Shown here piece after piece: positions 3 through 14,933 of a stretch of DNA of 15,178 bases. Under the pieces are notes generated by a model, which saw nothing but the letters and a program-made list of their open reading frames with translations, was not told the origin of the DNA and ran no database searches. Position numbers and translations under genes: made by a program. Location of the stretch: NCBI GenBank assembly GCA_001799195.1, contig MGSU01000316.1:12021-27198 (forward strand), in the 5' to 3' direction. Every line of letters begins with the position of its first letter. Position 1 is the stretch's first letter. Origin of the DNA: Deltaproteobacteria bacterium RIFOXYA12_FULL_61_11 (GTDB taxonomy: Bacteria > Bdellovibrionota_F > JAHFAK01 > YA12-FULL-61-11).

Positions 3-947
3 CTCTCGGAGCTGTACTCCAGCGTGCTCCAGATCACCATGTTCTGGAGTCTGGTGAACAATCTCTGCACGGTGCAGGAAGGCAAGCGCATCTACCCCTT
101 CATCTTCCTCGGGAGCCAGATCGGCGGCATGGTCTCGGGCAAACTGGCCAATGCCATCATCGGTTCCTACGGCATCCAACCGATGATCTACCTGGTCGCA
201 TTCCTCACCCTCTGCAACGCCTTCCTCTTGCTCTGGTACGGCCGGTGGCTCGAGGCCCATCCCGAGCTCCTCCCTCCGGTCGAGAAGGTCGAACTCAGAT
301 CGCGGACCTCGGCCCTCGAGGGTCTCCGCCTCCTGCTGCGGAAACGCTATCTGCTCCTGATCTTCGTCATCATGGTCTGTTACAACGTCTGCATCATCAT
401 GGTCGATTTCCAGTACAAGGTACGCATGGAGGGGCACATCACCGGCCAAGAGAACATCGGCGCGCTGTTCGGCGACTTCTATTTCTACGTCAACCTCGCC
501 TCGTTGCTCTTCCTGCTCTTCATCACCAAGAACATCATCCGCTACGTCGGCTTGACCGTCTGCCTCATCCTACTACCCCTGACCATGGGCCTCCCGGCGA
601 TCATCTCCTTCATGACCGCGGGCTGGCTGATGGGTCTCGTCGCCAGCGGGATCGGCCAAGCCGGCAAATATGCCTTCTTCGACCCCTCGAAAGAACTGCT
701 CTACGTACCCTGTACCGTGGACGAGAAATACAAAGCCAAGGGCGCCATCGACCTGATCGGCCATCGCGGGGGCAAGGGGCTGGCCTCGGTCATCAACATC
801 ATCATCCACGGCTACATGGTGTTGTGGGAGAGCCTCGTCTATTCTCTCGTCTTCTCCGGACTCCTCCTGCTCTGGATAGGAGCGGCGGTGAAGGTGGGAA
901 AACGGTTCAAGGAGCACCTGGGCGGAAAAGCCGTGAACCGGGAGTGA
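3..947 (+). CDS. TLC-family ATP/ADP (NTP/NDP) antiporter-like membrane protein, 5'-truncated by window edge
   Basis: The frame is open to the left edge, so the true start lies outside the window; 314 residues are visible against a usual family length near 500. The visible part has about seven hydrophobic membrane spans. Two stretches resemble the Npt/TLC nucleotide transporters: QEGKRIYPFIFLGSQIGG, which matches the family's QxKRxxPxIxxGxxxGG pattern, and a loop starting FDPSKELLYVP and running on to KAKGAIDLIGHRGGKG, which matches the conserved FDPxKExxYxP ... KGKAxIDxxGxRxGKS region. Family members exchange ATP for ADP or import nucleotides across the inner membrane. They are best known in Chlamydiae and Rickettsia but also occur in free-living bacteria. 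Substrate cannot be read from the sequence. The 3' end and its flank are repeated at 3477-3577. A different MFS-type carrier is possible but less likely. Confidence 0.8.
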   Translation, partial: LSELYSSVLQITMFWSLVNNLCTVQEGKRIYPFIFLGSQIGGMVSGKLANAIIGSYGIQPMIYLVAFLTLCNAFLLLWYGRWLEAHPELLPPVEKVELRSRTSALEGLRLLLRKRYLLLIFVIMVCYNVCIIMVDFQYKVRMEGHITGQENIGALFGDFYFYVNLASLLFLLFITKNIIRYVGLTVCLILLPLTMGLPAIISFMTAGWLMGLVASGIGQAGKYAFFDPSKELLYVPCTVDEKYKAKGAIDLIGHRGGKGLASVINIIIHGYMVLWESLVYSLVFSGLLLLWIGAAVKVGKRFKEHLGGKAVNRE

Positions 948-3476: not shown

Positions 3477-3577
3477 CTCTTCCTGCTCTGGATTGGAGCG
3501 GCGGTGAAGGTGGGAAAACGGTTCGAGCAACACCTGGGTGGGAATGCCGTGAACCGGGAGTGGAGTTCGGGCCGGTT
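3477..3577 (+). pseudogene. 3'-end remnant of a TLC-type transporter gene (repeat copy 2)
   Basis: This is a gapless match to 861-961, reading LFLLWIGAAVKVGKRFEQHL and GGNAVNRE where the intact gene has LLLLWIGAAVKVGKRFKEHL and GGKAVNRE. The stop TGA has become TGG, and nothing upstream of 3477 resembles the transporter. Several differences are silent or conservative, as expected if both copies were once translated. It lies directly beside the 3' end of the TPR gene. It is either the displaced native 3' end of the transporter gene or the tail of a lost second copy. Confidence 0.75.
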
Positions 3578-3620: not shown

Positions 3621-5984
3621 CTACTTGTAGATCCTGTTGAACAGGTCATCGGCGAGCTTGGGATCGAGCGCCCGGAGTTGTTGGTACTGGGCCATGGCTT
3701 GCGTGGAGTCCTTCTTCTGCAGGAAGAGCAACCCGAGCTGATACCGGGCCTTGGCCATTTCCGGCGCGTAGAGCAAGGCCTGCTGGAAGGACTCGATGGC
3801 CTCATCGAGCTTGTTCTCGGCCTGCCGCACTTGGGCTAAGCCGAGGTGTGCGGCCGCGTGCTTCCGATCGGCGAGAATGGCCTGCTGGTAATAGCGCCCG
3901 GCAAGGGCCAACTCACCTCGACGCTGGTGGCAATCGCCGAGCAGGGTCAAGGCCTCGAGGTGGGTCGGAGTGGTGCGCAGCACCGAGGTGAGGGCTTGGA
4001 TAGCCGGTTCGAGCTGTTTCTGGAGGAAATAGGCCTTCCCCAGGCGGAACATGAGGACAGGGTCGTCCTTGCGAAGGCGCAGCGCGGTCTGGTAGGCGGC
4101 GACGGCCTCGGCAGGACGCTCGGCTTTGAGGTTAACGTCCCCGAGCAATTCGGCGAGCGAGGAGTCCTCGGGCGCCAAGGCGACGGCTTCAGCGATGATA
4201 GCCACGGCGTCGTCGAGTTTATTCTCGAGGAGATACACCTCGGCCAGTCGCCTGCGCACCAAGGGATCCTTCGGAGCTTGGGTCAAGGCGTTCTGAAAGG
4301 CTTTTCTGGCCTCGGGATAGAGTTTGAGCTGGGTGTAGGCCAGGCCGAGGGTCACGAGGGTTTCTTGGCGTTGGGGGCCGAGTTCGAGGGCTTTATTGAT
4401 CGTTGCCACCGCGGCGGCATGCTCTCCGGAGAGGCTCTGAGCTCGAGCGAGCTCCACCAGGGCATCGACGTCGCGAGGCGAGAGTTCGAGGGCTCGATGC
4501 AGGGCCTTGATGGCCTCGGCTGGACGTTTGAGTCGATTGAAGGCGACGCCCAGGCCGAGATGGCCCTTGATATAGGTAGGATTGATCTGGACGGAGCGTT
4601 CGAGAGCCTGCCGGGCGCGGTCTGGCTGTTCCAGGACGAAGTAGCTTTCCGCCAAGAAATAGTAGGCTTGGAAGTCGTTCTGCCGCAGGGCGATGGCGCG
4701 TTGCAGGGCTTGTTCTGCTTCCTTGTGCTGACCGAGCCGTTGATAGGTACGGCCCAGGTTGTAGTGGGCCTGGGCGAGGGTCGCATCGATGGCCACGGCT
4801 TGGCGGAACGCGATCACCGCGCTCTTGAAATCACCGGCACTGGTATAGGCGAACCCAAGTGCATAATGTCCATCGGCGAGCTCCGGTCGCAGGCGAATGG
4901 CCTCCTTATAGGATGCAATAGAGTGCTGGTACTCGCCGAGCTGGTCGTAGACCGCACCGAGGCGGCACCAATTGCGAGCGCCCGCCGGCGAGGCTTCGGC
5001 GACCTGTCGGATGGCGTGGACGGCCTTGGCGCTGTTCCCTTGGGCGAGGTGGACCAGAGCCAACCCGTAGTGCCCATCGCTGAGCCCGGGATCGTCCCGC
5101 AGCGCTCGGTTGAGGTACTCGACGGCCTGCTCGTACTTCTGCTGTTTCCAGGCGAGATAGCCGAGTTGGAGATAGGCGGGCGGGTAGGAACGGGAGGTCG
5201 AGAGCAGGCGCTCAAGCCGAGACCTTGCTCCGTCGACATCGCCGACCAGGATCCGGTTGATGGCGGTGAGATACGAGAAATCGGCGGATTCCCGCCAAGC
5301 CGGTTTCGCGCCACTGTTGAAGGTCGCCAGAGGAATGCTCCGACCGGAGAGCAAGGTGCGCAGGCGCTCGGCCCCAAAGGCGAGATGCCGATTGGCGAGG
5401 CGGGGTTTGAGGCCGACGACCAACCCGAGTACTCGGCCCCGGGTGGAGATCACCGGCATTCCGGGGCTCTTCCACGCCAGCTCGGCTTCGAGTTCGACCA
5501 GGTCCCCGAGGTCGAACAACTCGTGCACCGCGGTGATCCTGCCTTTGGCGATCTTGGTGGCAAGACCTACCGGACTGCCAAACACATGCACCGTGCCGTC
5601 GATGCGTGGGCTGGTGTCTTCGAACTGGAGGGGTTTGCACAGCGGCGGTTTACGAACCAGCGCAATCCTTGCGAGGTCGAAGCGTGCCACCTCGGCGACC
5701 ACCCCTGCTACTGGGATGGTCGTGCCATCGAACAGCTTGACCTCCGCACGACTAGCTCCCTCGAAGGGATGCCGTACGGTGAGGACTTCCCCTTGCTCGT
5801 CGACCAGGAAACCGATGGCCTGGGCCAAGAGCTTCTCTTTGGCGTCATAGGTCAGGACCTGCAGAACCGAGGCCTGGGTCTTGCGCAACCAGTCTTCCGG
5901 CTCTTCTCCTCTCGAGGAAGAGATTCCACAGAAGAACCCCGCCACGAAGAGAACCCATGGCAACGAGCGCGGCCGGAGACCCAT
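3621..5984 (-). CDS. exported protein: degenerate trypsin-like domain fused to 15 TPR repeats
   Basis: 787 residues; ATG at 5984 has GGAGG five bases upstream. The N-terminus (1-27) is basic then hydrophobic, a Sec signal. Residues about 35-215 look like an HtrA/trypsin-fold domain: GFLVDEQGEVLTVRH puts His at 72, and RFDLARIALV puts Asp at 103. The segment where active enzymes carry GNSGGP reads KSPGMP (172-177), with Pro at the catalytic Ser position, so peptidase activity is doubtful. After a degenerate unit at about 235-268, residues 269-778 divide into exactly fifteen gapless 34-residue TPR units with the usual small/aromatic pattern and Pro near position 32. This predicts a long right-handed superhelix in the periplasm or outside the cell, used for protein binding or assembly. 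The gene stands alone with its own promoter. Confidence 0.9.
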   Translation of the reverse strand: MGLRPRSLPWVLFVAGFFCGISSSRGEEPEDWLRKTQASVLQVLTYDAKEKLLAQAIGFLVDEQGEVLTVRHPFEGASRAEVKLFDGTTIPVAGVVAEVARFDLARIALVRKPPLCKPLQFEDTSPRIDGTVHVFGSPVGLATKIAKGRITAVHELFDLGDLVELEAELAWKSPGMPVISTRGRVLGLVVGLKPRLANRHLAFGAERLRTLLSGRSIPLATFNSGAKPAWRESADFSYLTAINRILVGDVDGARSRLERLLSTSRSYPPAYLQLGYLAWKQQKYEQAVEYLNRALRDDPGLSDGHYGLALVHLAQGNSAKAVHAIRQVAEASPAGARNWCRLGAVYDQLGEYQHSIASYKEAIRLRPELADGHYALGFAYTSAGDFKSAVIAFRQAVAIDATLAQAHYNLGRTYQRLGQHKEAEQALQRAIALRQNDFQAYYFLAESYFVLEQPDRARQALERSVQINPTYIKGHLGLGVAFNRLKRPAEAIKALHRALELSPRDVDALVELARAQSLSGEHAAAVATINKALELGPQRQETLVTLGLAYTQLKLYPEARKAFQNALTQAPKDPLVRRRLAEVYLLENKLDDAVAIIAEAVALAPEDSSLAELLGDVNLKAERPAEAVAAYQTALRLRKDDPVLMFRLGKAYFLQKQLEPAIQALTSVLRTTPTHLEALTLLGDCHQRRGELALAGRYYQQAILADRKHAAAHLGLAQVRQAENKLDEAIESFQQALLYAPEMAKARYQLGLLFLQKKDSTQAMAQYQQLRALDPKLADDLFNRIYK

Positions 5985-6153: not shown

Positions 6154-7230
6154 TCACGGAGGCGCAAACAACTCTCGGAGGTGTCGCCGGCAAGCTGCAG
6201 CGCCCTCGCCCTCGGCCTGGTGTTCGAGGCAGGCCCGGAAATGGGCTTGGGCTTTCCCGGATTCTCCCCGGCGCAAGTAAAGGTGAGCAAGGTCGTGGTG
6301 CACATAGTGGAGCTGGAGCCGGTCCTCTGGAACGGCTCCGAACAAGGCTTGTGCTTTCAACAAGTGCCCCAAGGCCTTACCATCGTTTGCATGGTGCATC
6401 GCCTGGTCGGCCAATGCTTTCTGGAGGAGACCTGCCTCGCGTCCGGCAAGATGGCCATCCGCTCTCTCAGCAAAGAGGCCGAGGAGTTCGACCCTGCTCT
6501 CCTGCGACAGGTCCAGGAGGGTCCAATATAAAGGAGAGGATAGCTGCTCGGGATGCTCAACCTCGGTAAGAAGATTGTGGAGGAGGTCAACGGGTAGCTT
6601 CGAGGGCCTTGCGTCGAGTTGACCAAGGGCGGTGAGCAGAGCCTCGAGCTTGGCCTCAGGAGTTGCACCGAAGGCGAGGAGGTCGAGCAGGTGGGCTCGG
6701 GAAGGGGCACCGGTTTCGAACAAGGCTCGGATCAAGCACGGCAGCGCGGAAGACTCCCCTTCGAACAACCTCCGTTGGCTCGGCAAGGAGAGCCGGCGCA
6801 GGAAAGCGAGGCCGTGGGAGGGAGACCGGCGGAGCAAGCCCTCGGCCATAGTTTTCAGGAGGAGGAGCGCACGTTCTGCCGCACGAGGATCGACATGCAG
6901 CCAGACAGAAGCGCGCTCCAGGCTTTCGTGAAAGGGCTGGAGCTGGGGTTCGAAGCCGAGGAGCGGTTCGGTTCCGATCTGGCGGAGGAGAAGGGAGAGG
7001 AGCCGTTCGAGCCTGGGAAGACGTTCGGGGAAAGGACCCTTCGCCTTCGCGAGTTGGGTCTCGAGACAAGAAATTTCCCCCTGATCTCCGGTAGGCTGGC
7101 ACGCCGAGGAGAACCGTGGGAGGTTCCCGAACCCGGTTTGCCCGAGGAACAGATAGGTGCCGGTGTGCAGGAGGAACACCAACACCATGGGACACCAAGA
7201 GCCAGCGACGAGAGACCTGAGCGTGATCAC
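6154..7230 (-). CDS. membrane-anchored alpha-helical protein with C-terminal TPR-like segment, last gene of the operon
   Basis: 358 residues from the GTG at 7230, chosen because its GTGA overlaps the TGA of the upstream glycosyltransferase gene; the longer frame (to 7335) would run over that gene's 3' end. A hydrophobic stretch at about 8-30 (SLVAGSWCPMVLVFLLHTGT) is a signal anchor or signal peptide. The rest is Leu/Glu/Arg-rich and predicted helical. The last 60 residues contain a TPR-like helix pair (HDLAHLYLRRGESGKAQAHF), so the protein may be a solenoid facing the periplasm. No family was recognised. As the last of five coupled genes it may act as a partner of the glycosyltransferase. 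No catalytic motif is visible. Confidence 0.75.
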   Translation of the reverse strand: MITLRSLVAGSWCPMVLVFLLHTGTYLFLGQTGFGNLPRFSSACQPTGDQGEISCLETQLAKAKGPFPERLPRLERLLSLLLRQIGTEPLLGFEPQLQPFHESLERASVWLHVDPRAAERALLLLKTMAEGLLRRSPSHGLAFLRRLSLPSQRRLFEGESSALPCLIRALFETGAPSRAHLLDLLAFGATPEAKLEALLTALGQLDARPSKLPVDLLHNLLTEVEHPEQLSSPLYWTLLDLSQESRVELLGLFAERADGHLAGREAGLLQKALADQAMHHANDGKALGHLLKAQALFGAVPEDRLQLHYVHHDLAHLYLRRGESGKAQAHFRACLEHQAEGEGAAACRRHLRELFAPP

Positions 7231-8882
7231 GGCACGAGCACCACATCGTGTTGCTGTTGACCCGGGAACCAAAACCGATGAACAGCTTTCTCCAGGCATT
7301 GCCCGGGCAGGAGGAGAGCGAGCTGCTCCCGGCATTCGAGGGTCAGGGGGTGATCGAACCCCTGGGGAAAGACATACAGCGCGGTTCCCCGCGGCATGCT
7401 TCCCGGGTTTCTGGTCGCGTCGAGGTCGACATTGCGGAGAGCCAAGGCGGGGAAGCGCAACCGGAGTTGGAATTCGAAGGGTTTATCCCGAGCGAACGCA
7501 GGGGGGCAGTGGCGCAAAACCACGCTCTCGGAGTTCGTCAAGGCTTGCACGAAGGGAAGATCCTGCTCGAACGGCAACCGGAAGGGGGTGGAGGGAGGAA
7601 GGAGCCGGTCGTGGAAGCGGTAGTACGTGTCCTGGGGCGTCACAAGCGCCAGGTAGTCGGTGACAGGTCCCTCCACGGTGCTCAGAAGTGCCAGATTGCA
7701 GAGCAGGAGTCCGAGGACCATCCTGCGTAGCCACTCGCCTCGGAAGGTGGTGAGGTAGTGGGCGACCGCGACGACAAGCAACCCATGACAGGGAAGGAGG
7801 TAGTAGCTCCGTTTCTGGGCCACCGCGGTGAGAAGGACAAGGCTCGCCCCCAGCGAGACGAGGAGGAGGCGATGCGCGCGATACCGGCGCGAGGCGAGGG
7901 TGACGTACAGTCCCGCCGCCAGCAGCATCGCGGGCAAAAGCGTCCAACTCTTGAGCAGGTACCACGGGTAGAAAAGGAGCTGGAAAGCCCAGCCCGCACC
8001 CGGGAAGTGTTCCGGGGAGAGATGGTACCGCCAACGCTCGAGGGAGAGGAACGGGGCGAAGAAGTAGAGACCGCCAAGGCCGAGAACCCCTGCACCGACC
8101 AGACAGGTTCTGAACAGGAGGGGATGCCGGCGACGTTGGGCGAACACCACCAGGAGCACCAAGGGCACGGTACAAAGGAGAAAGGCTGGTTTCGTGCAAA
8201 GGCCCAGGATCGCGATGAAGACCAGAGAGGCCGAGCGCCTTCGCAGGCTCGATCCGGGGCGCGGGGCAAGGAAGTGCTGGAAGAAGAGCGTGACCCAAGC
8301 AGCCAGCAGCAGGTCGAGTTGGCAATAGCGCATCGCCGCGGCGATTGGAGGGAGGAGGGGAAGCAGCGCCACGGCATACCAGGCTTCTCCAATCCCGGAC
8401 AGACGGCGCACCAGTCGATGGAGGGGAAGAGCGAGGAGCGCATAGGCGAGGATATTCGGTAGGAGAACGACCGCGGGTCCCTTTCCCAACAACAGGCAGC
8501 AGAGGGCACCGATGAAGAAGCCGAGAGGGGGATGCGCCAGGTCGATACGTTCAGGGAACCAGAGGAGGAAGGTGTCGAGACTCGCCTCGACCCAGGCTCG
8601 GCCGAGGGCGTCGGTGAATTGGAAGGTCGTACCAAGGTGCAAGGTCGCGTCGCCGTTGCCCCCGTATCCGACCTTCGCAACCCAGGCCGCCAAGACCCCC
8701 GCTGCGAGGATATTGGCGATCAGGGCCGTCTTGTACGCCCGACGGGGGTCGAGGCCCTCAGCGCTCTGCACCGTTGGGCCTGGGCGGGGGTTCAATTCCT
8801 GCACAGCCATGTCCTCTCGCCCCGCTTGCACCGCTACCTTCGCGACCGCGCTCGGGGAAACCTTGTTCCAGTCCTGTACCAT
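7227..8882 (-). CDS. GT39-like (ArnT/PMT_2-type) membrane glycosyltransferase
   Basis: 551 residues with about ten hydrophobic spans between 50 and 410 and a soluble C-terminal domain of about 140 residues. Family-like features are the first external loop after span 1 (GGNGDATLHL, Asp 78), AHPPLGFFIGA at about 116-126, which matches the [KH]PPL motif of PMT_2/ArnT proteins, and KRSYYLLPCHGLLVV near the end of the membrane part, like the family's RYLLPxxP region. Such enzymes move a sugar from a polyprenyl-phosphate donor to lipid, glycan or protein on the outer face of the inner membrane. The usual acidic pair of the first loop is reduced to one Asp, so the substrate is uncertain. The ATG at 8882 lies three bases past the upstream gene's stop. 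ATG 8810 (residue 25), with GAGAGG very close, is an alternative start. The stop overlaps the next start by four bases. Confidence 0.8.
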   Translation of the reverse strand: MVQDWNKVSPSAVAKVAVQAGREDMAVQELNPRPGPTVQSAEGLDPRRAYKTALIANILAAGVLAAWVAKVGYGGNGDATLHLGTTFQFTDALGRAWVEASLDTFLLWFPERIDLAHPPLGFFIGALCCLLLGKGPAVVLLPNILAYALLALPLHRLVRRLSGIGEAWYAVALLPLLPPIAAAMRYCQLDLLLAAWVTLFFQHFLAPRPGSSLRRRSASLVFIAILGLCTKPAFLLCTVPLVLLVVFAQRRRHPLLFRTCLVGAGVLGLGGLYFFAPFLSLERWRYHLSPEHFPGAGWAFQLLFYPWYLLKSWTLLPAMLLAAGLYVTLASRRYRAHRLLLVSLGASLVLLTAVAQKRSYYLLPCHGLLVVAVAHYLTTFRGEWLRRMVLGLLLCNLALLSTVEGPVTDYLALVTPQDTYYRFHDRLLPPSTPFRLPFEQDLPFVQALTNSESVVLRHCPPAFARDKPFEFQLRLRFPALALRNVDLDATRNPGSMPRGTALYVFPQGFDHPLTLECREQLALLLPGQCLEKAVHRFWFPGQQQHDVVLVP

Positions 8883-8885
8883 GGA

Positions 8886-10130
8886 TCACCATGGGGTTCC
8901 ACGGCGTTGGGCGGCGCTCCGGTTGCTCAGGTCGCGGCCGGAACGGAGGGCCGAGAGAACTCGCACGATCAGCTCGGGGGTCGGACGACCTCTCCCATCG
9001 AGCAGTCTCACGGCCTCTTGCCTGGGGAGGCCGAGGACCTTGGCCAGCCTGAGCGGCGAAGGACGGAGGAATAGGTCGAGGAGGCCGCCCCATCGCTCGT
9101 GGACGAGGAACTGGGTGAGCAGGAACTGCGCGTTCATGCCCGGGGGAGGCAGGGCGAAGCCACGTTCGAGCACGAACTCGAGGTACTGCCTGCGAGGCAG
9201 CGAGACAGCCCGGCGGAGCTGCCGTTCGACGGCCCGAGATACGCGCACCTCGGCGCGGGCGGCGAGTTCGACGGCCAAGAGCAGATTTGCCCGGAGGTTG
9301 TTCTCGGCGGTCCAGCACAGGAGTTCATCCCAATCGAGCGTGTCGCGGTGCAGGGAGAAGAACAGGGCGAGATCGAGCCCGTGCTTGAAGGACACGACCT
9401 TGCCCAGGCGCCGGAGGTTGAGAACCAAGGCCATGACCGTGTACTCGGGTGACAGGACTTGCAATCCCTCGGCTCGGGGATGGGCGAGCGCGCGCAACCG
9501 GGGACGCCAGTCCGGGAGGTCGAGGCCGGTCCGGGCTACGTCGAGCGCGGGATGGAGATCGAGCGTGGTCAGGGGCGTGCGCTCCGGCGGTGCATGGTAC
9601 AGGACATGGACCTGCTGGTCGTCCCGACGGAGCGAAGCAAGGGATTCCTCCCCGTCCTCCCGGTAACCGAACCCGTCGATAAGGACCTTCCCCGCCCGTT
9701 CGAGGTCCTCGGGCACGACCAAGAGGTCGAGGTCCCGACACACCCTGGCCTGGTTGGCGGGATAGAGCTCATGAAGCAGGGCCATACCCTTGATCGGCAC
9801 CACGGGGATGCCCGCGGTCGTGAGGGCAGTACATAGCTCGAGCGTTGCTCGCCAGGTGAGGGCGTTGGTGAGCAGGCGAAGCCGGTGGCGATCAGCGAGG
9901 AGCTCCGGCCAGCCCTCGGGCAATGCCGTGGGGTCCTCGAGATAGAGGGGATGCAGGAAATCGAGCAGCTCGTGGTGCTCGAGGTACGCGAGGATTTCCG
10001 GAGAAAGGTGCGGAGGGTCGAACCGACCACCGACGACGCCCAGACAAGAACGGTGCAGGAGCGGGAGGAGTTGGCGCAATACTGGTGAGGGGTCGACGCC
10101 TCTACGGCCTGATCGGAGAGCGGACCACAT
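8886..10130 (-). CDS. NTP_transf_5-type nucleotidyltransferase family protein
   Basis: 414 residues. The start is the ATG at 10130, which shares one base with the TGA of the upstream radical SAM gene (TGATG). The frame runs open to 10817, but that extension is antisense-like Arg/Pro-rich sequence inside the radical SAM gene. Hallmarks of the uncharacterised nucleotidyltransferase family (PF14907) are VPIKGMALLHELY (112-123), CRDLDLLVVPEDLE (131-144) with the Asp-x-Asp pair (133, 135), the helix AGKVLIDGFGY, and TLDLHPAL (189-196), standing where the family usually has E/D-x-H-W. These proteins have a minimal nucleotidyltransferase fold. Relatives occur in lasso-peptide and other tailoring clusters. 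The acceptor molecule is unknown. The position between a radical SAM enzyme and a membrane glycosyltransferase suggests modification of a shared intermediate. Confidence 0.8.
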   Translation of the reverse strand: MWSALRSGRRGVDPSPVLRQLLPLLHRSCLGVVGGRFDPPHLSPEILAYLEHHELLDFLHPLYLEDPTALPEGWPELLADRHRLRLLTNALTWRATLELCTALTTAGIPVVPIKGMALLHELYPANQARVCRDLDLLVVPEDLERAGKVLIDGFGYREDGEESLASLRRDDQQVHVLYHAPPERTPLTTLDLHPALDVARTGLDLPDWRPRLRALAHPRAEGLQVLSPEYTVMALVLNLRRLGKVVSFKHGLDLALFFSLHRDTLDWDELLCWTAENNLRANLLLAVELAARAEVRVSRAVERQLRRAVSLPRRQYLEFVLERGFALPPPGMNAQFLLTQFLVHERWGGLLDLFLRPSPLRLAKVLGLPRQEAVRLLDGRGRPTPELIVRVLSALRSGRDLSNRSAAQRRGTPW

Positions 10131-11524
10131 CAGGATGCACCGCGAGAGGTCAGGTGAGAGTAAAACTGCAGGAGGCCGACGAGAGCCCTCCTCGTGCCCA
10201 CCTCGAAAAATCCTCCTGGGCCGAGCGGCTCCACCCCGACCAAGGTGTCCAGGTACTGCCGGTAGTATCGTTCCGGATGGTGGTGAAACTCGCTGCAGGC
10301 GTCGAGCACGAAGCGGTTGAACCCGACGAGGTCGGGACGAGCCTCGCCGAGGAAACGGAACGTGGCGAGGAGGTCGCGCAAGGTTTCCGTCGGCAGGCCG
10401 TAGATGAAGGAGGCCCGGGTGCGCAGGCCCGCGGCACGTGCGGCGCGAACCGCGGAGGTCATGGTGTCGACCGAGAGACGTTTGGCGCACAATTCCAGGA
10501 GCCGGGGGGAGGCGCTCTCCACCCCGAAGGAGAGGAGCGTGCAGCCCACGGCCGCGAGGAGAGCATAGAGGCTGGGGTCGGTCCACTCGGGGCGGGCCAG
10601 GCAGGTGAAGGAGACGGGCTCGGGGAGGGTTAGCAGGAGACCGCACAGTCGGCGGAGATAGTCGGGATCGGCGAGGAGATCGTTGTCGTGGAAGACGAAG
10701 CGCCGGCAATCGTGCCGTTGCAACAGCCCGCGCAACTCTTCCACGACTATGGCCGGAGGCCGGAGGCGGAGAGGACCCGGGAAGCCGCGGCCGCAGAAGC
10801 GGCACCTGCCGCCACACCCGCGGGAGGCGAGCATGGGCAAGCCTCGGCCCCCTTCTTGGTAGAAGTCGAGGTCGAAGAGGTCATAGACCGGCCCTGGGAG
10901 CGCGGGAAGATTCTCCGGAGGTGCATGCTCGGAGAGGATCGGGGTGGAGCCCGATTGATAGGAGAGGCCCGGCAACCCTTCGGGCCGGACGGCGCGATCC
11001 AGTGCGGCGACAAGGGCGACGAGCGTGGTTTCTCCCTCTCCCCGGACCACGAAATCGACCTGGGGCTTCTCCAGGAAATGGGGGGTGAAGCGCGAGGCGC
11101 GATGCCCGCCGATCACGGTGTGGAGGTTCGGGAACACCTGTTTGAGGTGCCGCAGGATGGTCAGAGCGAAGACGGCATTGTCGGCATTGACCGCAACCAT
11201 GCCGGCTCCGGTTGCACGTACCCGGGAGGTGACGCGGTCCTTCAGGAATTCGAGGTACTGCGTCCGGTAGCAGGCTTGCCGAACCGTTGCCAGGGGGGAA
11301 TGATCGTTGGTATAGAAGGTTGCCCGGATCCTCCGATTGTGGCCACGAGGGCCGAAGCACTGCACGCTCTCGCGATGTAGGTCGCACAACACGGGCTCTT
11401 CCCCGGCAGCCAGCAACGAACCCAGTAAAGAGGCGAGGTTCAGGGGCAGTTCGCTGACCAGACTTTCGACCGGAGTACGCAGGGAAGCGCGGAGCCCAGG
11501 AGGGTTGAGGAGCAGGACGATCAT
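10130..11524 (-). CDS. B12-binding-domain radical SAM enzyme (CX3CX2C)
   Basis: 464 residues; the ATG at 11524 overlaps the preceding gene's TGA (ATGA). Residues 1-180 form a cobalamin-binding-type Rossmann domain as in BchE-like enzymes: strand MVAVNADNA (109-117), then VIGGHRASRF (137-146) and VDFVVRGEGETTLVALV (156-172), the family's conserved VxGEGE turn. DLHRES at 48-53 recalls DxHxxG but lacks its Gly. The radical SAM barrel follows: SRGCGGRCRFCG gives Cys 237, 241 and 244 for the [4Fe-4S] cluster, then FHDNDLLADPDYL, FGVESAS and IYGLPTET, all typical. Enzymes of this class do radical methylation of unactivated carbon or ring rearrangement. Anaerobic or low-oxygen use is expected. The product cannot be named. 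It is second in the five-gene operon. Confidence 0.9.
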   Translation of the reverse strand: MIVLLLNPPGLRASLRTPVESLVSELPLNLASLLGSLLAAGEEPVLCDLHRESVQCFGPRGHNRRIRATFYTNDHSPLATVRQACYRTQYLEFLKDRVTSRVRATGAGMVAVNADNAVFALTILRHLKQVFPNLHTVIGGHRASRFTPHFLEKPQVDFVVRGEGETTLVALVAALDRAVRPEGLPGLSYQSGSTPILSEHAPPENLPALPGPVYDLFDLDFYQEGGRGLPMLASRGCGGRCRFCGRGFPGPLRLRPPAIVVEELRGLLQRHDCRRFVFHDNDLLADPDYLRRLCGLLLTLPEPVSFTCLARPEWTDPSLYALLAAVGCTLLSFGVESASPRLLELCAKRLSVDTMTSAVRAARAAGLRTRASFIYGLPTETLRDLLATFRFLGEARPDLVGFNRFVLDACSEFHHHPERYYRQYLDTLVGVEPLGPGGFFEVGTRRALVGLLQFYSHLTSRGAS

Positions 11525-12267
11525 CCGGGGCCATCCGCGGGGAACAGAGGTCTCCGGGTGACGATCAGGGAGAAGGTTCTGCCTCCTGCCTTCACCACCT
11601 GCAACGGTTCACAAGCGAGCTGGGCCCTCAGGGGTTCCTCGTAGAGCCGTTGCGGGTCGGCGGTGCTGATGTTGTAGAGCAACAGGAGCAGAGTTCTGGG
11701 CCGGGAGCGCAGCGAGCGTGCGAGATTCGTGCAGAACTCACGATACCCCTTCGGCCTGAAGGGATGATTGAGATAGAGGCAGGTGCACTCCTCGGGCAGG
11801 GGGTGGGTGAGGGCATTGACGCAGCGTACCTCGCAAGGAGGAGCCTGCTTGTTCTCGGTTCTCGGCCTGAGGTTGAAACGGGCGAGGGCGACGAGCAGCG
11901 GGGCCTGTTCGAGCCCGACGAGCTTCGAGAACGGGAATTCTCGAGCCACGAGCAGGCCCTTCCCGGCGCCGCAGCCGACCTCGAGAAAGCCCTGGTCCCT
12001 GGTCAGGTGAGGATAGCGTTCAAAGACGACGCGCAAGGCCTCCCGCAAGGGGGCCGCCGGGGTGGGGTGATAGTACTCGCTCTCCGCGCAGTCCCGCGGC
12101 CTCACGCCGAGCCGACTCAAGTGCGGAGGCAAGACCGTGAAAGTACGGTGCACCAGATCGAAGTGCACCTCGCGGAACCAGCGCTCGAGGAGTTGCAGGG
12201 CGTGGACGAAGCGCGACGGTTCGCGGGTGGGCCGGGGCGACGGAGGTGCCGAGGAGGTGTTGCTCAT
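11521..12267 (-). CDS. class I SAM-dependent methyltransferase, first gene of the operon
   Basis: 248 residues from the ATG at 12267. The glycine-rich SAM loop is GFLEVGCGAGKGLLVA (93-108), followed by the acidic end of strand 2 in KLVGLEQ (115-121). CLYLNHPFRPKGYREF (163-178) fills the motif IV region with an NHPF in place of the more usual [DN]PP[FY]. RTLLLLLYNIS is a later strand. The first 20 residues are Ser/Pro-rich and probably disordered. The start is not secure: no clear Shine-Dalgarno precedes 12267, a TTG at 12291 has GGGGAG nine bases upstream, and the open frame continues to 12423, but that would run into the divergent gene. O-, N- or C-methylation of a small molecule is likely; the substrate is unknown. 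Its stop overlaps the next start. Confidence 0.85.
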   Translation of the reverse strand: MSNTSSAPPSPRPTREPSRFVHALQLLERWFREVHFDLVHRTFTVLPPHLSRLGVRPRDCAESEYYHPTPAAPLREALRVVFERYPHLTRDQGFLEVGCGAGKGLLVAREFPFSKLVGLEQAPLLVALARFNLRPRTENKQAPPCEVRCVNALTHPLPEECTCLYLNHPFRPKGYREFCTNLARSLRSRPRTLLLLLYNISTADPQRLYEEPLRAQLACEPLQVVKAGGRTFSLIVTRRPLFPADGPG

Positions 12268-12286
12268 GCCGAGTGCGGTACCGCTG

Positions 12287-12299
12287 ATCAAGGCTTGAT
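12287..12299. promoter_or_regulatory. palindrome in the divergent promoter region, candidate operator
   Basis: ATCAAG-G-CTTGAT is a perfect 6-base inverted repeat around one base. It lies in the 91-base gap between the divergent methyltransferase operon and the radical SAM gene. It overlaps the best -35 candidate for the rightward gene, so a bound protein could control both directions. Confidence 0.4.
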
Positions 12300-12323
12300 A
12301 CTCCCCGCTCTCCGTGGGACAGT
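12295..12323 (+). promoter_or_regulatory. weak candidate promoter for the rightward radical SAM gene
   Basis: TTGATA (12295-12300, five of six) is followed after 17 bases by GACAGT (12318-12323), which matches the -10 consensus at only three of six positions. The predicted start lies about 30 bases before the GTG at 12359. The poor -10 suggests a regulated promoter or a different sigma factor. Confidence 0.3.
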
Positions 12324-12358
12324 CAAGAGTTCCTTCATCCGAGGTGCGAGGAGGCTTG

Positions 12359-13390
12359 GTGCAGGAAGAGGTTTCCCCCGAACTCGCGTTACCGGGCTTG
12401 GTCGAGGTCTCCTTCTCGGTCACCGCGGCCTGCCGCGGTTCCTGCCGGTTCTGCTACGCCAAGGGTCGAGCCGAGGTAGAGGACCCCACCCTCCCCCAAC
12501 TCGAGCGCCACTTCCTCCGGCTGCGGCAGGGGGGAGTCCGCACCCTGCGCGTAACCGGGGGGGAACCCCTGCTCCGCCGGGAGCTCCTCGATCTCCTCGA
12601 CCTCGCGAGGCACCACGGCTTCTCCTGCGTGCTGAACACCAGCGGGTTCGGCGGCCGTTCCCCGGCCTGGTGCGAAGAGGTGTTCCGGCGTTGCGACCTC
12701 CTCATTATCTCCTTGCACGCGCTCGATCAGGCGGCCGCGAACTGGCTCGGCTGGACCGGAGGGGAGATCGGGGAGAACCTCGCCTTCCTGCGCCACGCTC
12801 TTGAGGTAGTCCCGGCCAAGGTCGTGGTGACCACGCTCGTCACCACCGTCTTCCAGGCCCAGTACCAACGTTTCCTCCTGTTGCTGCGCTATCTCGGGGC
12901 TCCGCGCTGGTACCTAAACCGGCCCATGGTGGACCCGGTACTCGGCACGACTCTCCATCCCGAGGCGCGAGCCCTCGACGCCCTGGTCTCTGACCTCGTG
13001 CGCTTCCGTTCGAGCTGGCCCGGGGAACTCAGGCTCTCGAACTATCCCCACTGCAGGTTCGGCGAACCGGCTCGAGGCCTCCTGGGCAAGAACCTCCTCC
13101 TCAACGGCGTCAATCGTCTCACCCGCGACCTCGATGGCCGGTACCGTCCGGTGGGCACCCTCGCCCTCGATCTCGGCGAGGAAATCGGCGCGGCTTGGGC
13201 AAGCAACCCCTTCCGCCTCGACGCGCGACCTTGCCGGTTGCCTGAGGTGTGCCGGACTTGTCAGCTCTTCCCGGCCTGTGTAGGCGGGAGCCGGCATCAG
13301 GCCTTCGCGCAGCACGGCTCGTATAACGCTCCAGATCCTCTCATGGTCGGTCCGATTTCCGGGAACGGCCAACTCGGGGGGCTCGCCTAG
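12359..13390 (+). CDS. radical SAM protein with reduced SPASM/twitch C-terminal domain
   Basis: 343 residues from the GTG at 12359, chosen because GGAGG lies four bases upstream and the product then begins shortly before the first strand; the frame is open to GTG 12314. SVTAACRGSCRFCYAKG supplies Cys 25, 29 and 32 (CX3CX2C), and VTGGEPLLRRELL (65-77) is the SAM-contacting GGEP motif, as in MoaA/PqqE-type enzymes. The C-terminus is SPASM-like: PHCRFGEP, DLDGRYRPVGTL, LGEEIGAAWASNPFR, then CRLPEVCRTCQLFPACVGGSR (CX5CX2CX5C). The Cys normally following the DGxVxP segment is Val here, so probably only one auxiliary cluster forms. Relatives modify peptides or cofactors. It diverges from the methyltransferase operon and overlaps the next gene tail to tail by 50 bases. 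Confidence 0.85.
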   Translation: MQEEVSPELALPGLVEVSFSVTAACRGSCRFCYAKGRAEVEDPTLPQLERHFLRLRQGGVRTLRVTGGEPLLRRELLDLLDLARHHGFSCVLNTSGFGGRSPAWCEEVFRRCDLLIISLHALDQAAANWLGWTGGEIGENLAFLRHALEVVPAKVVVTTLVTTVFQAQYQRFLLLLRYLGAPRWYLNRPMVDPVLGTTLHPEARALDALVSDLVRFRSSWPGELRLSNYPHCRFGEPARGLLGKNLLLNGVNRLTRDLDGRYRPVGTLALDLGEEIGAAWASNPFRLDARPCRLPEVCRTCQLFPACVGGSRHQAFAQHGSYNAPDPLMVGPISGNGQLGGLA

Positions 13391-14933
13391 GATCGGGCCA
13401 AGTCCGATGGAAACGCCGGTACAAGCCCCTGATGACGGTTTCCAGCTCCTCCCGGCTCAGCCCATCTTCGGTCCTGTACCGGTACCCGAAGCGCCGGGTG
13501 AGGTACTTGTCCTCGCGGTCAATCCCCGTGACCCCATAGTGAGCGGGCCGAGAGAAGACCTCACTGCCGTCGTCGAGGCTGAACACCGCCACGCAGAGGT
13601 GGTGGAACAGGTCGCGATGGCCTTCGAGGAACTCGAGGGTCTGGTGTACCTCGTCTCTGGTTTCCCCGGGAAAGCCGAGGAGCAGGTTGAGGACCACGGT
13701 CAGGCCCGCTCCGCGGAGGCTCCGCAGGATGGCCGGCACCTCTTCGCATCGGTGGGGTTTTCCCATGCGCTGGAGGGTCCGCGGAACCGCGGCTTCCAGC
13801 CCCAGCACCACGCGCCGGCAACCGGCTCGGGCGATCAACCGGGCCAGCCCCGGAGAAGCAAGGTCAGGGCTGAGGCACAGATTGCAGGTCCAGTCGAACC
13901 GTTGGTCCAGGGCGACCAAGCGGTGGCAGAATGCTTCGAGGAAGGCCGGAGGGAGGGCCTCGTCGACCAGGTCGAAGCGGGTGGCGCGATAGGTGCGGCC
14001 GAGGGCGAGGAGCTGCTCAACCGCTTGTTCGGGCGGCAGCAGCAGATGGTCCCGGGCGAGACGCTTACTTGTGCAATAGGTGCAGCGGTGCCAGGGACAA
14101 CCGATCGAGAGGCGATGGGGGACGAAGGGCACGTGTAATCCCTTGAAGTCCGGGAGGATGCGCACATCCTCGGGTATATATCCTTCCCGACGGACGGGGG
14201 GCACGAACCGGCCTTCGCGACAAAGATGCAGATTGGGCACCTGGTCGAGCTCGGAGCCATCGTGCAAGCAGCGGATGAGGGGCAAGAGGGCCCGCTCCCC
14301 CGCGCCCTCGGCCAGGCCATCGACCAAGAGCGCTAGGTCGGCACACGCAGTCAGGAACCCGAGGTTCATGGTGACGACCGGGCCCCCGAGGACCACGAAC
14401 GAGGAGGGGGCTTCCCGCTTGACCTCGCCCGCCAAGCGCAGCGCCGGATACAACTGCGAGGGGGTGGTGACGGAGATGCCGACCAGGTCAGGTCGGGTCT
14501 GGCGAAGGGCCACGGTGAGGGCGGGTACTCGTTCCTCGGGGAGGTGCGGCCGGGCACAACCAGCCACCAGGATGGAGCGCAGGGAAATCGGGGGCGGGAG
14601 GACTTGGGCGACGAAGGCGGCTTCGTTGTCGCGGTGTCGGTGCGCGTTGATCCAGGAGAGAACCCCGGCGAGCACGGAACCCTCTCTGCGCAGCAGGCCT
14701 CGGCGCACCAGAGGATAGATTCCTTTGGCGAACGGAGGGTGTCCGCGGGTGTCGAGGAGGGCCAGGTGACGATACCCGGCCGCGACTGCCTGCCCTCGCA
14801 AGACCGCGATGCCGAGCGGCGGGTGCGGCAACGGATTGAAGAAGCTGGAAGGCACGAACCCGGGCGCCTCGGGAGGGACCACCAGCAGGGTGCGCAGGGT
14901 CACGCCGTGGAGTGTTGAAGACTCCCGCTCCAT
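13341..14933 (-). CDS. B12-binding-type radical SAM enzyme with CX4CX2C cluster motif
   Basis: 530 residues from ATG 14933; the GTG just before it (14936) has GGAGG eight bases upstream and is equally likely. The frame extends to 15125, but that part is low-complexity and lacks a ribosome binding site. The N-terminal half (about 10-240) is cobalamin-binding-like: VTLRTLLVVPPEAPGF, HPPLGIAVLRGQAVAAGY, PDLVGISVTTPSQ, VVLGGPVVTM, and LVDGLAEGAGERALLPLI in place of the usual VxGEGE turn. The radical SAM centre reads SIGCPWHRCTYCTSKR, with Cys 279, 284 and 287: four residues, not three, separate the first two cysteines. Later motifs FDLVDEALPP, VLGLEAAVPRTLQRMGK and LLLGFPGETRDE are typical. It probably does a radical methylation or cyclisation; the substrate is unknown. 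Its 3' end overlaps the convergent radical SAM gene. Confidence 0.85.
   Translation of the reverse strand: MERESSTLHGVTLRTLLVVPPEAPGFVPSSFFNPLPHPPLGIAVLRGQAVAAGYRHLALLDTRGHPPFAKGIYPLVRRGLLRREGSVLAGVLSWINAHRHRDNEAAFVAQVLPPPISLRSILVAGCARPHLPEERVPALTVALRQTRPDLVGISVTTPSQLYPALRLAGEVKREAPSSFVVLGGPVVTMNLGFLTACADLALLVDGLAEGAGERALLPLIRCLHDGSELDQVPNLHLCREGRFVPPVRREGYIPEDVRILPDFKGLHVPFVPHRLSIGCPWHRCTYCTSKRLARDHLLLPPEQAVEQLLALGRTYRATRFDLVDEALPPAFLEAFCHRLVALDQRFDWTCNLCLSPDLASPGLARLIARAGCRRVVLGLEAAVPRTLQRMGKPHRCEEVPAILRSLRGAGLTVVLNLLLGFPGETRDEVHQTLEFLEGHRDLFHHLCVAVFSLDDGSEVFSRPAHYGVTGIDREDKYLTRRFGYRYRTEDGLSREELETVIRGLYRRFHRTWPDPRRAPRVGRSRKSDRP

Follow-up and report, generated by a model that had tools for sequence, protein, structure and literature searches.

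A putative tailoring locus with three radical SAM enzymes, a PF14907 protein and a predicted membrane sugar transferase in a Deltaproteobacteria genome

What is made by a run of seven genes in which three radical SAM enzymes (rSAMs) stand beside a methyltransferase, a nucleotidyltransferase-like protein, a membrane glycosyltransferase and a helical protein, and do these genes serve one pathway? We addressed this question for positions 6154-14933 of a window of 15,178 nt (the whole stretch of DNA analyzed, to which all positions refer), which forms the right end of contig C316 (27,198 b) of Deltaproteobacteria bacterium RIFOXYA12_FULL_61_11. The source genome is 87% complete and consists of 4.64 Mb in 342 contigs. 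Seven genes fill the interval, and a codon-usage gene caller retained all seven, in agreement with a sequence-only reading made before this analysis. Because the contig ends at the right window edge, the gene set may be incomplete, and any partner upstream of the outermost gene, which starts approximately 245 nt from the contig end, would be missing. The last 31 bases of C316 matched nothing in the contigs of the source genome that were examined (a minority of its contigs).

Five genes lie on the minus strand in the following order: a class I SAM methyltransferase (11521..12267, 248 aa), a B12-binding rSAM termed B12-rSAM2 (10130..11524, 464 aa), a PF14907 (NTP_transf_5) nucleotidyltransferase-like protein (8886..10130, 414 aa), a PMT_2/GT39-like integral membrane glycosyltransferase (7227..8882, 551 aa) and an orphan all-helical protein (6154..7188, 344 aa, in an ORF open to 7335). 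The methyltransferase stop overlaps the B12-rSAM2 start as ATGA at 11521-11524, and the B12-rSAM2 stop overlaps the PF14907 start as TGATG at 10130; both overlaps, as well as the start position of the PF14907 gene, were taken from sequence reading. A 3-nt gap (8883-8885) separates the PF14907 and PMT_2 genes, and the helical gene follows 38 nt beyond. Owing to these overlaps and short gaps, we infer that the five genes form one transcription unit. The remaining two genes are arranged differently. A SPASM-like rSAM (12359..13390, plus strand, 343 aa) diverges from the operon, with 91 nt between it and the methyltransferase start. Its final 50 nt are shared with the 3′ end of the convergent B12-rSAM A (13341..14933, minus strand, 530 aa), the first gene at the contig end. 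Therefore, the proposal of a single locus holds with regard to adjacency but not collinearity, and the seven genes are not one operon.

The left flank contains further features. A gap of 169 nt separates the operon from a downstream gene of the same strand (3621-5984), which encodes a 787-aa fusion of a trypsin-like domain and a long TPR array; its MamA match was taken as a generic TPR match. Further left, a TLC-type ATP/ADP translocase gene (PF03219) adjoins a presumed urocanate hydratase-like gene, so named from its sequence (window 3-947 and L043:11663-12967). TLC-type translocases are known chiefly from plastids and intracellular bacteria. A 101-nt direct repeat, 87% identical (861-961 and 3477-3577), carries the 3′ end of the translocase gene in a partial duplication, and the window begins directly after a short N run (scaffold gap) within that gene.

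The three rSAMs all exceeded the curated Pfam cut-off for Radical_SAM (PF04055, 29.5 bits), with 64 bits for enzyme A, 55 for the SPASM-like enzyme and 77.7 for B12-rSAM2, and all carry a CXnCXXC motif (CPWHRCTYC, CRGSCRFC and CGGRCRFC, respectively), in which n is 4 rather than 3 in enzyme A. Two of them had been read as B12-binding. This was borne out for B12-rSAM2, in which a B12-binding domain (PF02310) precedes PF04055 at 42 bits against a cut-off of 32.1, whereas enzyme A was borderline, with 30.6 bits over part of the domain. Among 41 B12-rSAMs with a readable motif in pooled contigs of the source genome, 39 have CX3CX2C, and the CX4CX2C form was found in enzyme A and only one other. 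The third enzyme retains C-terminal SPASM-type cysteines (CX5CX2CX5C, only the later cysteines of the SPASM pattern) but has no match to PF13186; its NCBIfam matches to ScmF, Tes, viperin and MoaA are weak.

None of the named B12-rSAM equivalogs (PhpK, BchE, HpnJ, HpnR, ApyD and rSAM_ocin_1) was reached at the NCBIfam curated cut-offs, which makes the label of an unassigned tailoring locus a fair one. B12-rSAM2 matched ApyD (105.9 bits, cut-off 750) and BchE (98.5) best, both far under the cut-offs, and on this ground a bacteriochlorophyll assignment was rejected, as was a hopanoid hpn cluster (HpnJ 61 of 578 bits, HpnR 34 of 650). The substrates of PhpK, ApyD and rSAM_ocin_1 are phosphonates or peptides. 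For enzyme A, the best model was the P-methyltransferase PhpK at 103.5 bits, which would suit a phosphonate or phosphinate pathway in which enzyme A serves as the P-methyltransferase. However, the PhpK cut-off is 600, B12-rSAMs of another kind from an unrelated genome (locus L203, below) also score 70-99 bits, and the Pfam-scanned genes of the window and the left part of the contig include neither a PEP mutase nor any other gene for phosphonate synthesis. The assignment was rejected on the NCBIfam cut-offs, and we regard this chemistry as very improbable here.

The other operon proteins were recognizable to different degrees. The PF14907 protein scored 91.9 bits against a gathering cut-off of 31.2 and keeps the DXD active-site motif as KG...RDLDLLV. 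The membrane protein falls within the GT39/PMT_2 family (PF13231, 29.7 bits against 26.1; seven hydrophobic segments) and is a predicted sugar transferase; transferases of this type use polyprenyl-linked sugars. Both identifications agree with the sequence-only reading. The methyltransferase was recognizable only weakly: it contains the motif FLEVGCGAGKG, but its family match (Methyltransf_25) of 20.7 bits is below the cut-off of 27, its PDB matches to RlmG and PRMTs are weak, and its single-sequence fold reached a pLDDT of 36. The helical protein matched no Pfam family and had no homologue in 240 other genomes. Its single-sequence AF2 model is all-helical (pLDDT 64). Foldseek matched the model weakly to TPR and other helical-repeat proteins, never at E<=0.001, and on this model it is probably TPR-like. 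It had been called membrane-anchored, which we found unsupported because no segment passes the Kyte-Doolittle threshold.

The unusual mix of enzymes had been judged not to match a familiar pathway. This argument is weaker than first thought, since tandem B12-rSAMs, SPASM-type and GT39-like neighbors and the pairing of PF14907 with rSAMs are all recurrent. In the source genome, B12-rSAM2 gave 51 matches in 4.64 Mb, some of which may be rSAMs that lack a B12 domain, and approximately 50 such matches represent a marked expansion. Because 23 of the 51 have another such match within 5 kb, two neighboring B12-rSAMs are unremarkable in this genome; tandem copies occur, for example, on C16, C48, C119, C124, C279, C283 and C336. 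This density favors an explanation without a single pathway, in which the five-gene operon is the only unit and the SPASM-like rSAM and enzyme A belong to other processes and were brought next to it by that density. The divergent and convergent orientations of the flanking genes fit this explanation, as does the result of the neighborhood search, in which the exact seven-gene set was found in none of the other genomes searched, an outcome that goes some way toward the rare co-occurrence by which the sequence-only reading would be refuted. Nevertheless, one unrelated genome holds a similar cast at L203 with no unrelated genes in between, and at many sites of the source genome a SPASM-type rSAM is found no more than 5 kb from a B12-rSAM, as seen on contigs chosen for their B12-rSAMs. 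We hold such a juxtaposition to be a serious but unlikely explanation, and the flanking rSAMs probably belong to the same pathway as the operon, although they could be independent.

The exact gene set is thus new, and its component enzymes are of known kinds. Relatives of the PF14907 protein were found in 28 of 289 other genomes, of the methyltransferase in 9 of 289 and of the PMT_2 protein in 4 of 279, with E-values calculated per genome; in the five methyltransferase neighborhoods that were listed, no other window family was matched. Relatives of B12-rSAM2 were only 24-37% identical, and a pooled search found no PF14907 match with two 29% relatives in the contig scan. Genes of relatives were called by greedy ORF selection or with a codon model trained on the source genome, and families outside Pfam and NCBIfam were represented by HMMs built from the window proteins and their matches and scored by best bits. 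The phylum is hardly sampled: the comparison covered one other genome from it, in which the PF14907 protein was absent, and the relatives outside the phylum are classed only as belonging to the same domain, so that absence there says little about closer kin.

The company kept by PF14907 proteins elsewhere points toward peptides. The family occurs in 136 of 386 genomes sampled, beside an rSAM as a recurrent pairing. Within 6 kb of 60 PF14907 loci, drawn from the upper part of a ranked list rather than at random, we found an HprK-like P-loop protein in 29 (a raw count), a SPASM-type rSAM in 13, and a B12-rSAM (at L203) and a PMT_2 protein of the window subfamily in one each. In the source genome itself, a SPASM rSAM, a PqqD-SPASM rSAM fusion and a PF14907 gene lie in a row (L048:7029-10507), resembling a peptide-tailoring cassette. 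L203 (G118:C101) carries, in order, PF14907, an HprK-like kinase (TIGR04352, 25 bits, under the cut-off of 200), three B12-rSAMs, a methyltransferase and a partial rSAM. Moreover, RiPP enzymes are among the best NCBIfam models of the window B12-rSAMs. We take PsmN, from the pseudomycoidin system, to be a PF14907 member. One report (PMC9266682) describes PsmN as placing hexoses on the phosphoserine of the lasso peptide pseudomycoidin. PsmN acts there after phosphorylation by PsmK.

These observations support RiPP-like tailoring, in which the SPASM-like rSAM and the B12-rSAMs would modify a precursor encoded beyond the contig end, the methyltransferase would methylate it and the PF14907 protein, acting like PsmN, would attach a nucleotidyl or hexosyl group. 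However, the small gaps contain no precursor-like ORF, neither a protease nor a transporter of the types typical for such clusters occurs among the scanned window genes, and the RiPP hallmarks (precursor, RRE/PqqD, exporter/protease) and HprK, the kinase that a PsmN-like route would lead one to expect, were not seen on C316, which ends approximately 245 nt upstream of gene A. A PMT_2 membrane transferase would not be expected in such a pathway, and SPASM density near PF14907 (16 per 630 kb) was only 2.7 times that further out (3 per 314 kb), which is suggestive only. We regard a peptide product as a serious but unlikely reading.

The sugar-related genes lead in another direction. GT39-like proteins repeatedly adjoin B12-rSAMs in the source genome: of its 24 PMT_2 genes, 7 have a B12-rSAM no more than 5 kb away (P ~0.002 against uniform placement, with contig ends ignored; P = 0.016 at 8 kb), three of these seven being on the window's own contig. 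The nearest paralogue of the PMT_2 protein (34%, on C298) adjoins an rSAM and a B12-rSAM, C119 carries two B12-rSAMs flanked by PMT_2 genes, and other B12-rSAMs adjoin GT2 glycosyltransferases, NeuB, a DegT aminotransferase and a split transketolase; these examples were chosen from gene maps after inspection and therefore show a theme, not a frequency. Elsewhere on C316 (L043:2-9200), an AMP-binding enzyme, a GDSL-like/TPR protein, two PMT_2-like proteins, a methyltransferase and a B12-rSAM are found.

Because a PMT_2 gene lies within the operon and B12-rSAMs stand beside glycosyltransferase and sugar-biosynthesis genes elsewhere in the genome, our leading, still tentative reading, at a probability of roughly 0.4, is that the locus tailors a cell-surface glycan or glycolipid. 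We infer the substrates and chemistry of all seven proteins as follows. The B12-rSAMs and the methyltransferase would install methyl groups or another radical-based change on a cytoplasmic sugar or lipid precursor, the PF14907 protein would add a nucleotidyl or sugar-phosphate group, and the PMT_2 protein would then move a sugar from polyprenyl phosphate at the external face of the membrane, with the helical protein possibly acting as a scaffold. Several points argue against a glycan: nucleotide-sugar synthases, flippases, polymerases and GT2/GT4 proteins are absent from the window, PF14907 proteins elsewhere accompany HprK-like kinases and SPASM rSAMs, which suggests peptide or carrier modification, and the closest named B12-rSAM families act on phosphonates or peptides, although the similarity is far below cut-off. 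We also speculate, while considering it unlikely, that B12-rSAM chemistry, the PF14907 nucleotidyltransferase and the polyprenyl-sugar membrane transferase work one after another on a single surface molecule in an undescribed pathway, of which the G118 locus would be a second, kinase-containing version. PF14907 proteins are common yet almost uncharacterized, and literature searches on the family or on the gene combination returned nothing relevant. The union of PF14907, B12-rSAMs and a membrane sugar transferase at one locus, in a genome with approximately 50 B12-rSAMs, offers a place to test whether PF14907 proteins act on peptides or on surface glycans.

Known systems resemble the locus in part. 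The SynChlorMet cassette contains the SPASM rSAMs ScmE and ScmF and the HprK-like ScmC. The SPASM-like rSAM of the window weakly matches ScmF (42.9 bits, cut-off 400), but the window has only one such enzyme, lacks PqqD and ScmC and has B12-rSAMs in addition. rSAM_ocin_1, ApyD, PhpK, BchE, HpnJ and HpnR share the order of B12-binding and radical SAM domains, whereas the window enzymes score far below these families' cut-offs. As in PsmK-PsmN, a nucleotidyltransferase-like protein is placed inside a tailoring operon; in contrast to that system, the window genes include no kinase and no lasso A/B/C genes (neither an asparagine-synthetase-like lasso cyclase nor a transglutaminase-like protease) and do include B12-rSAMs and PMT_2. 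L203 differs from the window in its HprK-like kinase, its third B12-rSAM and its lack of PMT_2 and the helical protein, and it may have been assembled independently rather than by common descent, since its B12-rSAMs share only 24-30% identity with the window enzymes. It nonetheless brings together PF14907, tandem B12-rSAMs, a SAM methyltransferase and an rSAM on one 7.5-kb contig.
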